A stretch of 64,000 bases of DNA. Source: Cliona cf. orientalis. Taxonomy: Eukaryota; Porifera; Demospongiae; Clionaida; Clionaidae. The position numbers and the translations under genes were made by a program. Location of the stretch: positions 6,742,225 through 6,806,224 of the forward strand of contig OZ005690.1 of the NCBI GenBank assembly GCA_963930775.1, given 5' to 3'. Under the pieces are notes generated by a model that saw only the letters and a list, made by a program, of their open reading frames with translations, ran no database searches and had not been told where the DNA came from. Every line of letters begins with the position of its first letter. Position 1 is the first letter of the stretch. Below, one piece after another: positions 11,566 to 17,587 of the stretch.

Positions 11566-11673
11566 CTCATTGAGGCAATGAATTACTGTATAGGAGGAAA
11601 GTTTGGCGAGATTTTTTATTTGGTGATTTGGCGAATTCGGCATACATCACCAAATAAAAATCATCAATTGAAC

Positions 11674-11677
11674 TTAA
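11674..11677. repeat. Left TTAA target-site duplication
   Basis: TTAA directly precedes the terminal repeat ACGAGGAGGCGGGGT; the same four bases follow the right terminus at 15853-15856. Confidence 0.85.
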
Positions 11678-11691
11678 ACGAGGAGGCGGGG

Positions 11692-11700
11692 TATAAAAGG
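11692..11700 (+). promoter_or_regulatory. TATA box of the transposase gene
   Basis: TATAAAAGG lies 14 bp inside the left terminus of the transposon and 247 bp before the proposed ATG at 11947. Having the promoter next to the terminal repeat is usual for DNA transposons. The transcription start was not determined. Confidence 0.6.
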
Positions 11701-11946
11701 GCCCGCCCTGGACGGAAGCAATGTTTATTTTACCACATCCGTCACATGAGCCAATATGGCTGTATTACAAAAAATTCGCGAGTTATCTTGCCATGCCATG
11801 GCATGCCGGCAATGGCGCCAGCTATTTTACACATGACAGACACACAGTACAGTACAGCGAACCAGCGTTGGCGCCATAGCGCGAATATAAAGAAAGCGCG
11901 AGACACCCCAGAGACACCTTTTCGAAGGCACCTGTAAGGAAAAAAA

Positions 11947-14735
11947 ATGGCTACTTTGAATGAGCAGAGAAAGAAGCGCGCGAGACTAGGATTTCGGTAC
12001 ACTATGGAGCTGAACTTCGCCAGTGAAGATAGCAAGAAGTCGTTCTTGTCGAGGGTGGAGAGCGCTAAACAGAGACTCGCTCCCAGAGGCTCACCGCCGC
12101 TGGACAGTCGCGAGCTACTTAGCTCTCTATTGGATTTGGCTGAAGCCACTCCTCCACCTGCTACCACGTGCACTGGAGATCGCCAGGCAGTCCCTACAGG
12201 ATCCATGACAATGCTGGAAAACTCAGGTGTGTATTCTTGAGATACACGTAATGGCTTAGTCATAAACAACAAACTAACTGTTGTGCTTAGGATTCTTTGT
12301 ACCCGGTGATGAAGGCAATGATGAAGCCCAATCATTATTTGTTTGTGAGCGCAAGACGTTTGAGGATCTTTGCGCTGGGCTCATACAACCATGTCAGTGC
12401 CAAGCTAGTGCACGGAAGATGATCAAGACTGTTCAGGTGTGCATAGCCCATTCAAGTGAACTTATCAAATATTTAGTCGACGTTTATATGCACGTACCTC
12501 AGAGAGGACATGTCCTCCGTGTCGAGTTTCAGTGTCAGCAGTGTAAACAGAAGCAGCGGTGGGCCAGTTCACGAACACTTGGAGGACGCTACCTTATTAA
12601 CCAGAAGTAAGTATCCATTACTTTCCCTTCGTTACAAGAGCTAGGTACTGAAATATTTTCAGGATCGTGCATTCGTTTACCTGTGCTGGTATTCTGCCGA
12701 GCCAGTACATCCATTTTTCCACTCATGCAAACTTGGGCACACTGGGTCCATGGTATATCAATTCGGGTGAGTTTGCAAAAGAAATGGGGTGATGGTCGAT
12801 TGACTCTTTGCTATTTGCTAGTCTACAAAAGTGGTGGGTACTTGGAAGCAGTGAACACCTGTGCCAAGTTATCAATGATGAAAGCTATCACAGAAGTGAA
12901 AGCATTGCCACATTACGCTGCTAGTGGTGAGGTACGTATGTGCACATTTATAACCCTGCTACGAATTAATGATAAATAATGTTGTATCTCTCAACAGTGG
13001 GTTATTACTGATGCTAGACACGACTCGACATCCAATGCCTTCCATACCACTGTCCCCTGCTTGTCTGGAAGGTAATTATGTGTTCAATTGTTGTTGTGAA
13101 TAGGTGTATAGAACATGATACGTTACATGTACACATACGTTATTGTATTATAATTATTATGATAGCACCAAACGAATTCTTGGCTGTGCAACAGTATCCA
13201 GAAAGGAGCATGCCATCGCTCAAACAAGGGAACTTGAGGCCACCAAAGCAGTACTTCCTCAAGTCCTTGAACAAGGTGGTATATTTCATGTATTTATGTG
13301 AACATTGATTATTGAATTAGATCTATACATGTATGCAGATCTGAAGGTTGTGGAAGTAGCGCATGATAATGCAGCAACAGTCAAGAATTACATCACCGAG
13401 GATTTACATCTCCTGAACTCATACGACACGTGGCATGGTACAGTTGCTGATTCCCAATACTTGTCATGGTGTTCAGTGTGCTTTAATTAGGTACCAAGAA
13501 TGTAGCAAAGGGCATGAGGAAGATCTCATGTGGTACCAAAAAGACAGAAGGAAAATCTTGGTTTGTAGAGTTATCAGACAAATGTAAGTTACCAACTCAT
13601 GAGTCTCCACCATTATGATGTTCTACATGCATGTACATGTAATTAGGCAAAAGTACAAAAGTTCATCTGTACTACTGCATGAAAAACTGTGCCCAGTCTC
13701 CAACAAAGCTTAGGGAGAGCATTCTAAACATTATTAGCCACTACCAGGTGAGTCAGAAGCATAGAATACCCTCTTATGTATGACTTTACACAATAATTCT
13801 TGCTATATATACAAAGAACAAGCACTCCCAGTGCCACGAAGAATCCTTCTGTAGACGCTCTCGGTACAGTCCCTCAAAGTTGCGACTCACCGATCCTGCC
13901 GCAATACAGGCATATGAGAAGGCACTCAAGGCCACTCTCATTTACAAGAATGCGGAATCATACTGTCGGGTAAGTAATTTTGAAAGATTTTACGACGTGT
14001 TGAGCAAGTTAATCTATCATTAGTGTCGGGATACTTTCTGGATCGAGTCGTTCAACCATCAGTTGCTCACTTACCTTCCCAAACGTATTCATTTTGGCTC
14101 CACCACCTTCAAGATGAGAATGAACCTTGCTATTATGGATTGGGTATAATAATGCTCATAATTTATTGTGTTCACACATGTTGACTCTCACCCGCCCCCC
14201 TCCCGGCACACTAATATCTAGAATGAGAATGTACAAAGAGCCAGCACAAGTGAGCATTTTGTTTTGGATATGAGGAGACCCGACCGAAGAACTCCCATGA
14301 AGGTGCTAGTCAAGAAGACTTTTAATTTTGTTGGTGATATCTGGAGGACATACACTTGTTGGAAGGTTACCGACCTCAGGTGAGCGAGAGCATCTTGTAT
14401 GGTGGATAATGGTGTGGTACTTCATGTACAATATTATTGTGTGTATGCACATGTTCATATACACTTGCATGTACATGTATTATGCATGTTTGCATGTATC
14501 TCGCCCTTGCTCCCTCCCTTTCTCCCCCTTCTAAGTGAATCCTAACCTGAAATTATATTGAGGGTGGAGAGAGAGTGACATAGTGTATACCACAGTGTTT
14601 TTCTTTTCATAATCTTATAGGGAAGTGGATGAGAACGACAGTGATGTGGATGTGGGTGATGAGGAGGATGATATATTGGCTGATGGGGAAGGCTTACTGG
14701 AGGATGAAGTTGATGAGGTGGAACAGCAAGAATAA
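11947..14735 (+). CDS. Putative DDE transposase of the TTAA transposon
   Basis: Proposed exons: 11947-12226, 12291-12606, 12663-12766, 12822-12931, 12998-13071, 13166-13275, 13339-13437, 13491-13583, 13647-13747, 13817-13969, 14024-14143, 14222-14379, 14621-14735. All junctions are GT-AG and in phase, giving 610 residues; an optional 66-bp intron at 12437-12502 would give 588. The N-terminal third is basic and Ser/Pro-rich, then has Cys pairs (QCQAS, FQCQQCKQ). The core carries ITDARHDS (D275/D279), VEVAHDN (D341), a Cys/His block (CMKNC, HSQCHEESFC) and FWIESFNHQLLTYLPKR (E488). That fits a DDE/RNase H-like fold and resembles a group of unnamed animal proteins with an E-x-F/x-N-H motif before KR-F. 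The C-terminus is acidic (DENDSDVDVGDEEDD). The candidate acids are an inference. No frameshift or stop was found, so it may be functional. Confidence 0.75.
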
Positions 14736-14805
14736 ATGAACTGTATAGCAACATGTAAGTGTGTGAAACTGCCTAATAGTACGTGTACATATGAGTGTGA
14801 TTATA

Positions 14806-15568
14806 TTAGAAGCGTGATGATGGTTGGAAGTCGGTGTAAGGGACTCCAGGTGGATTGGGAAATCGACCACGCACCTCCTGAAAAGATCACACTTATTGTT
14901 ATTGTAAGTTGCTATGGTTGTAGACTACCTATACTTACCCTTACTACACATGCAGGCAGCACATCCCTGGTGTCTAGTACACTTGTCTTGGTGCACTTAT
15001 AGTGTACGTATTCGGAATGGTTCCACACACCCAGCTGACTCAAGAAGGTCCAAAATTTCCTATACAAAGCAAAGCGCTTGGAGTTGTTTGCAAGACTGGG
15101 TGCCGAAGAGCCCCTCACCCAGCTAGGTGGTCGGTCTACCACACAGGGGGAGAGGTGGCAGTATGGACAGGCATTCGGTCCATCGAGCTCTGGAGGATCA
15201 TAACCACTTGGACCTATAAAGATAAGTTACCACTATAATATTATGTAATGTATAGAGCTCTGGAAAATTGGTGATAATGTTTAGTAACTGCAGGATAACC
15301 TTTCTTGGACTTCTCTGCTGTGGGAGCAGTGACTTGGCCAGTAGCAGAAGAACTGGAAGAACTGGTAGACTGACAGCTGTCAAGGATACACCTCGTGGAT
15401 GAGAGCTCTATCCCTGGATAGGAGGCTACCAAGACTCTGAACCCCTCCAAAAAGTCATTTGGAGGCTGTTTCTTGTAGCATACTTCAAGCTAATGGATAT
15501 TTAGTTATTATTTATTATGTTTTGTTGATATTCAGCTAGCTCACCTTGAGTTTTGCCTGTGAAACCAT
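14806..15568 (-). CDS. Accessory protein of the TTAA transposon, P2X7 intracellular domain-like
   Basis: Exons on the minus strand: 15568-15545, 15489-15300, 15213-14939, 14877-14806. All junctions are GT-AG and in phase, giving 186 residues from ATG to TAA. The N-terminal half is low in complexity (a Ser run, STSSSSSSATG). The C-terminal half has CPYCHLSPCV, PPSWVRGSSAP, KRFALYRKFW, RDVLPACVV and EVRGRFPNPPGVPYTDF. The Y-R-x-F .. R-x-V-L/I-P-x-C-V-V .. R-x-x-F/Y-P pattern matches what I know of the P2X7 intracellular-domain family, which recurs as stand-alone proteins in invertebrates. It ends 71 bp from the transposase stop and is transcribed towards it. Its role is unknown; DNA binding or transposase partnership is only a guess. 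A TATTTAAG on the minus strand near 15775-15783 could be its TATA-like box. Confidence 0.75.
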
Positions 15569-15852
15569 TATTTGCTAGGTTTTTTTGTTATGAAAGTGTC
15601 AGACAGCAGCTGTTCAAATTTCTATTGTTTGGCGCGCTTGTATGGTACCGCGCATGCTATGTAAAGTGCATTGTGAGGGCTTCACAGTGGTAAGAGAATG
15701 GCTACATAGCCATGGCAAACTCGCCGAATTTGAATCTTGGCGGCGAGGTCAAAGGTCGTGCCCTGGGCACGCGCCTTAAATACCCGCAGTCCGCAAACGA
15801 TCGCGCGTTGGAAACTTTCGCGTATTGCAATATTTAACCCCAACTTCCTCGT

Positions 15853-15856
15853 TTAA
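15853..15856. repeat. Right TTAA target-site duplication
   Basis: TTAA follows the terminus ..CTTCCTCGT and leads back into the interrupted MITE (TTAATGCATG). Confidence 0.85.
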
Positions 15857-17514: not shown

Positions 17515-17587
17515 TTCTAAGCCGGGATTTGAACCCAGCACCTTCTGAATTCTAGTCAGACATTCTTACCAATTGAGCTACTAAAGC
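17515..17587 (-). pseudogene. tRNA-like relic or tRNA-derived SINE head
   Basis: Read on the minus strand it has an A box (TAGCTCAATTGG), an anticodon arm TCTGA-CTAGAAT-TCAGA with formal anticodon AGA, a 5-base variable loop and a good T arm with B box GGTTCAAATCC. The acceptor arm (GCTTTAG against CTTAGAA) has several mismatches and the D stem has one, so it is probably not a functional tRNA. The intact internal promoter boxes with a decayed acceptor fit a SINE head or pseudogene. Confidence 0.6.

Follow-up and report, generated by a model that had tools for sequence, protein, structure and literature searches.

A Kolobok-like TTAA transposon with a KolX-like partner gene in the sponge Cliona cf. 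orientalis

A stretch of 64,000 nucleotides (nt) from contig OZ005690.1 of the sponge Cliona cf. orientalis (assembly GCA_963930775.1, positions 6,742,225 to 6,806,224 of the forward strand), hereafter the window, was analyzed. It contains an element bounded by TTAA duplications, in which a predicted transposase gene on the + strand faces a gene on the - strand for a protein resembling KolX, the second protein of the Kol0 lineage of Kolobok transposons. The element is very probably a recently active cut-and-paste DNA transposon working like the Kol0 group of Kolobok. As its ends read AC..GT and its transposase gave no THAP match, it is placed on a distinct Kolobok-like branch rather than among the textbook members. 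A preliminary description, made from the letters alone, had reported TTAA duplications, short terminal inverted repeats and two convergent, spliced and intact genes at 11678..15852; as judged from the sequence, these coordinates are exact and no frame is broken. All feature positions are collected in Table 1.

Ends, copies and empty sites

The element inserts at TTAA with a 4-bp duplication, has exact ends and occurs in many copies, several of which carry both genes intact. Over the first 20 positions the two ends match at 15, with 7 identical base pairs (bp), ACGAGGA. By itself this match is weak evidence; since copies were chosen by their ends and not by TTAA, and TTAA abuts both sides in 7/7 of them, it is not attributed to chance. 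Ends were read in the window and in 13 of the 20 retrieved loci and genes were read where both ends had been found, which gave seven two-ended copies (window, L002, L003, L004, L005, L008 and L009, the last carrying an insertion). Both genes are intact in four of these, namely the window copy, L002, L003 and L005. In L004 the transposase is intact and KolX frameshifted, in L008 KolX is intact and the transposase broken, and in L009 both are broken. Over aligned bases, the window copy shares 99.4% identity with L002 and 99.2% with L003. In the remaining loci read, one end is missing or insertions interrupt the element.

A search of the same genome returned at least 89 matches (best 40 of 364 candidates scored), and five loci besides the window span from the left to the right TTAA. 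Genome-wide, the left-end pattern (TTAA plus 24 nt, at most 2 mismatches) was found at 44 sites and the right-end pattern (TTAA plus 26 nt, at most 2 mismatches) at 32, with 0 sites for either reversed control. From these pattern searches, 17 pairs of left and right ends lie 1.5-6.4 kb apart, most of them known from their ends alone, and 12 of the 44 left ends have no gene match within 6.5 kb.

Flanks were joined and used as queries for empty sites, resulting in matches across the join for five of the eight usable pairs (L071, L002, L003, L004 and L008). For L071, which is a copy of a sister family described below, the match covers 224/224 nt at 100% with a single TTAA. Matches for L002 reached 93%, those for L008 92% and those for L003 85-92% in 15 places; for L004 they reached 94-98% in 23 places, extending 27-46 nt past the join. 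All empty-site matches are known by their ranges. No match was listed for the window, L005 or L009 (best 40 of 1474 candidates scored). The recent activity proposed in the preliminary description is thus borne out by closest copies that are 99% identical and by empty sites for five of eight flank pairs. Full-length copies with TTAA flanks and both genes, which it had named as a sign of a mobile family, were likewise found (7/7 flanked by TTAA, 4/7 with both genes intact).

Just outside the left end lies a perfect 15-nt inverted repeat with an 18-nt loop (window 11613-11660); the element may have landed inside another repeat. Elsewhere in the window, a tRNA-like match (Rfam RF00005, 35.9 bits) was recorded at 17520-17582 on the - strand.

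The transposase and its KolX-like partner

The transposase gene is predicted from sequence to contain 13 GT-AG introns of 53-241 nt and has no internal stop. The intron at 12437-12502 is in frame and could be read through, and alignment with relatives favours its splicing out. In agreement with the DDE-like transposase seen in the preliminary description, the protein carries the putative catalytic residues D253, D319 and E466 and the DTWH motif, and the Pfam scan gave PF20700 as sole match (E 5.8e-9). It thus appears to combine the DDD/E residues of Kolobok with a C/DxxH signature between the second D and E, and with a zinc finger between C/DxxH and E whose third position is Cys. C419 and the Thr of DTWH are the only motif residues that are not invariant across seven aligned proteins, one of which is from oyster. 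Most of the motif residues recur in coral proteins, but the second H is missing from P0071, and P0074 ends before E. The distant relative P0075 has ETWH in place of DTWH. Relatives were found down to E 7e-195 and named sponge relatives to about 1e-183, the best named ones being from Halichondria, Ephydatia and Amphimedon. PF20700 was matched by 13 of 17 relatives, some of them partial. Against six copies, the ratio of nonsynonymous to synonymous divergence (dN/dS) of the transposase was 0.11-0.22.

The partner gene has three GT-AG introns of 55-86 nt and an unbroken frame, again as predicted. Cys87, Cys95 and Cys160 are kept in at least 90% of 22 relatives and Cys90 in most; other Cys are not conserved, and the seven conserved Cys of the ballast zinc site are not present as a set. 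Profile-profile comparison (hhalign) with the canonical ballast proteins encoded in this genome gave the partner a score of 32.3 and a probability of 67%; scores in 200 column shuffles averaged 12.1 and reached 23.0 at most. The alignment comprises 51 columns of the C-terminal part and, of the four conserved Cys, includes Cys160 only. The canonical ballast profile in turn matches P2X7 structures at E 3e-19. Because the score exceeds all shuffles and the canonical profile matches P2X7, the partner is taken to be a divergent KolX-like protein; in its C-terminal part, this comparison gives the similarity to P2X7 region 476-595 that marks KolX. The likeness to the P2X7 intracellular domain noticed in the preliminary description is therefore real, as judged from these profiles, but remote. 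No other domain above cut-off was found in the partner by the Pfam scan.

In the genome, 131 matches were grouped into 75 KolX-like loci. At least 43 of these have a transposase match within 6 kb, on the opposite strand in 43/43 and convergent in 42/43; as 74 of 509 candidates were scored in the transposase search (at least 224 matches), this linkage is a lower bound. At 12 further KolX loci a left terminus lies no more than 6 kb away, in the expected orientation at 11, and 20 of the 75 have neither a listed transposase match nor a left terminus within that distance. Two other families, with KolX at 43% and 48% amino acid (aa) identity, share the terminus TTAA|ACGAG. The second family (L071-L073) is about 98% identical among its members, with ends ACGAGCATG and TTAA at 5/6 ends; the third (L074) begins TTAA|ACGAGGAGGCGGGGTATAAAAGG, and its right end was not found within the stretch retrieved. 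The TATAAAA stretch is kept in the transposase-side ends of both families, and occurs in 42 of the 44 left-end pattern matches, the pattern itself containing it. Fourteen loci of the second family (L071, L072, L073 and 11 more) share a KolX score of 74.3 bits, perhaps reflecting a very recent burst.

The partner gene, on the strand opposite the transposase, evolves under purifying selection, as estimated at KolX exon 3. Among 22 loci compared, the window included, 13 gave dN/dS of 0.08-0.14 (synonymous divergence, dS, 0.42-0.91; 82 or more codons aligned without gaps), although these 13 are not independent tests because the loci are related to one another. Such values indicate that a KolX-like protein is probably required. 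Exon 3 also carries a divergent patch relative to L004, L005, L008 and L009 (Table 1). Against these four copies KolX dS was 0.21-0.35 compared with 0.057-0.071 for the transposase, and the KolX changes were mostly synonymous; the patch looks like the product of exchange between subfamilies.

A canonical lineage was found in the same genome. Of 31 P2RX7_C matches, 14 have a THAP match within 6 kb and 17 have none, the expectation being about 0.005 per locus. The 14 pairs lie on opposite strands, 1.9-5.2 kb apart, and 13 are convergent by nearest match. Candidate TTAA|AG ends were seen at two of the THAP and ballast loci, L036 and L039, tentatively and on one side only. The full seven-Cys pattern was read in L022 and L025 only, neither with THAP within 6 kb. 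In L022 the canonical ballast protein lies in a single 281-aa frame with a Cys-rich stretch before it; this locus is possibly a host gene or another element.

Table 1. Positions of the features of the element in the window
Feature	Position	Strand	Remarks
Left TTAA target site duplication	11674..11677		TTAA directly outside 7/7 two-ended copies
Whole element	11678..15852		4175 bp
Left (transposase-side) terminus, ACGAGGA	11678..11697	+	15/20 positions match right end
TATAAAA box-like stretch within left terminus	11692..11698	+	Putative promoter role
Transposase gene, 588 aa, 14 exons (predicted)	11947..14735	+	11947-12226, 12291-12436, 12503-12606, 12663-12766, 12822-12931, 12998-13071, 13166-13275, 13339-13437, 13491-13583, 13647-13747, 13817-13969, 14024-14143, 14222-14379, 14621-14735
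D253, presumed first catalytic Asp (ITDARHD)	13010..13012	+	Invariant in 7 aligned transposases
D319, presumed second catalytic Asp (VAHDN)	13365..13367	+	Invariant in 7 aligned transposases
DTWH, C/DxxH signature, residues 339-342	13425..13436	+	D, W and H invariant in 7 aligned transposases
Putative zinc finger H405-x4-H410-x2-C413-x5-C419, between DxxH and E	13739..13852	+	Spans intron; both H and first C invariant in 7
E466, presumed third catalytic residue (FWIESFNH)	14045..14047	+	Invariant in 7 aligned transposases
KolX-like gene, 186 aa, 4 exons (predicted)	14806..15568	-	15568-15545, 15489-15300, 15213-14939, 14877-14806
C-terminal motif PACVVREVRGRFPNPPGVPYTDF with Cys160	14827..14956	-	Spans intron; part common to canonical KolX and P2X7
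Divergent patch over KolX exon 3	14978..15277		9.7-19.3% from L004, L005, L008, L009; other 150-nt bins at most 8.8%
ACPYCHLSPC, Cys87/Cys90/Cys95 cluster	15143..15169	-	Conserved in partner relatives
Right (KolX-side) terminus	15833..15852	-	
Right TTAA target site duplication	15853..15856		TTAA directly outside 7/7 two-ended copies

Transposition and alternative explanations

In transposition of the Kol0 type, D253, D319 and E466 would form part of an RNase H-like core that cuts at 5'-ACGAG, with rejoining at TTAA. The KolX-like protein would be an accessory for transposition supplied by the same element, and its most likely role would be to bind the DNA ends of the transposon or the transposase, not to act as a nuclease. 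As the left end carries a TATA-like box, one may further speculate that binding of this end damps transcription of the transposase.

Judged by sequence features, TTAA, DxxH and the zinc finger fit Kolobok, and the AC..GT termini, the missing THAP match and the reduced Cys set of the partner do not. Several observations weigh against a Kol0-like transposon with a working KolX partner. The ends begin with 5'-AC on both sides in 7/7 two-ended copies, in place of the published Kolobok 5'-RR..YY-3'; AC was also seen in 43/44 left and 28/32 right ends from the pattern searches, which are biased towards it. Pfam found no THAP in the window transposase, nor in 17 relatives, several of which are incomplete at the N-terminus. 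P2RX7_C matched the partner at E 0.017 in full and 0.0044 when trimmed, both below the curated cut-off; among 22 aligned partner sequences only the window protein was listed at E<=1, and 3/6 trimmed sequences were listed. The profile-profile probability is 67%, and the Cys87-95 cluster lies outside the aligned part. The partner profile matched no meaningful solved structure, and its structure model was poor (predicted local distance difference test, pLDDT, 61), making the fold comparison uninformative. At exon 3, the remaining 9 of the 22 loci gave no ratio or a higher one, four being identical or nearly so, and five partial or gapped loci gave dN/dS of 0.15-0.32. Between the window and L002 or L003 the KolX changes mostly alter amino acids (3 vs 1 and 5 vs 1), numbers too few for a selection test. 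Finally, five of 48 transposase loci among the matches listed have no KolX match within 6 kb, and in L073, one of three sister copies, TGCA replaces TTAA on one side.

An origin as two single-copy host genes between chance TTAA repeats, or as a domesticated pair, would suit the unbroken frames and the purifying selection, but is most improbable given dispersed near-identical copies with precise TTAA ends, the empty sites and the occurrence of broken beside intact copies. Single-copy status was refuted by the dispersed copies and the empty sites. The host use suggested in the preliminary description was not supported, since the family has many dispersed copies as well as empty sites; an individual copy may have been domesticated. 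Assignment to piggyBac would explain the TTAA duplication, and a partner lacking most Cys resembles the piggyBac-associated KolX-like proteins mentioned in the accessible part of PMC9587614 (Kojima and Bao 2022). It is nevertheless improbable, as the Pfam scan gave PF20700 alone and no piggyBac transposase domain, and as DxxH with an intervening zinc finger is the Kolobok pattern.

A somewhat stronger, though still unlikely, candidate is an independent origin in a MuDR-like lineage, with convergence on TTAA and separate acquisition of KolX. PF20700, the only Pfam match, is named Mutator-like transposase, the termini are not of the RR type, THAP is missing from the protein, and no THAP-bearing protein was among the 51 profile matches listed (7996 candidates). 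The TTAA duplication fits Kolobok, however, and according to the accessible part of PMC9587614, MuDR, P and hAT have no finger between the second D and E. A further alternative concerns the task of the partner only and overlaps with the Kol0-like transposon preferred here: the KolX-like gene could be a passenger that helps the element escape host control, for example silencing, and takes no part in transposition. Purifying selection and linkage would suit any useful passenger, and the divergent patch in exon 3 may have arisen as a variable partner was exchanged, so that this role is possible but doubtful; the same opposite-strand ballast pairing beside THAP matches suits a partner tied to the transposase, and no other domain rose above cut-off in the partner.

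It may be tentatively proposed that the element represents a lineage of TTAA transposons not yet described, occurring in sponges and, as judged from transposase homology, in stony corals. Such a lineage would be marked by 5'-AC termini, a transposase of the PF20700 type without THAP, and a KolX-like partner from which most zinc-binding Cys have been lost but which remains essential and is exchanged between subfamilies as a module. If true, transposition makes use of a relative of the P2X7 ballast domain that functions without the double zinc centre. Intact, near-identical KolX-like copies stand beside THAP and canonical ballast loci in one genome, and the role of KolX in transposition and its need for Cys are therefore directly testable.

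Relation to known systems

The literature was available in part, and the statements in this section apply to the parts accessible. The preliminary description regarded the two-gene plan as possibly undescribed. This did not hold, as the Kol0 lineage already carries a transposase and KolX, and the match of KolX to the ballast domain and fold of P2X7 dates from 2022 (PMC9587614). What sets the element apart is its place on a branch whose ends are unusual and whose cysteine pattern is reduced. The same paper reports Kol0 from sponges among other animals, proposes that the P2X7 receptor obtained its intracellular domain from a KolX relative, and gives KolX no function. A THAP domain, usual and N-terminal, and AG termini are listed as Kolobok features in PMC6004289 (2018). 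The ballast domain has also been traced across animals, including a sponge (PMC7016195; Rump and others 2020), where ballast genes are described as ancestrally syntenic with two markers, from sponge to sea urchin; the accessible text contains no word beginning with transpos, and the synteny may partly reflect transposon gene linkage. Among the papers listed in a literature search, no member was seen that combines AC..GT termini, absence of THAP and a reduced Cys set.

Compared with Kol0 (Kolobok-1_XT type, PMC9587614), the window element has in common the 4-bp TTAA duplication, the DDE residues with DxxH and an intervening zinc finger, and a second gene for a P2X7-ballast-like protein. It differs in having AC..GT instead of RR..YY termini, no THAP match, and a partner with about four conserved Cys rather than the seven of KolX. 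The THAP and P2RX7_C loci of the same genome fit the published Kol0 pattern and set off the branch of the window element: they share with it a ballast-type gene on the opposite strand, and are distinguished by the presence of THAP, a ballast domain above the Pfam cut-off and candidate TTAA|AG ends. KolobokP, KolobokD, KolobokE and KolobokH (PMC9587614) likewise combine a Kolobok transposase with an accessory protein, encoded in KolobokP on the complementary strand as in the window; their accessories are nucleases or a helicase, unlike the KolX-like partner, and long terminal direct repeats are a feature of KolobokP. A few piggyBac families (PMC9587614) share with the window element TTAA and a C-terminal KolX-like part in which most Cys are missing; the window transposase gave no piggyBac match.

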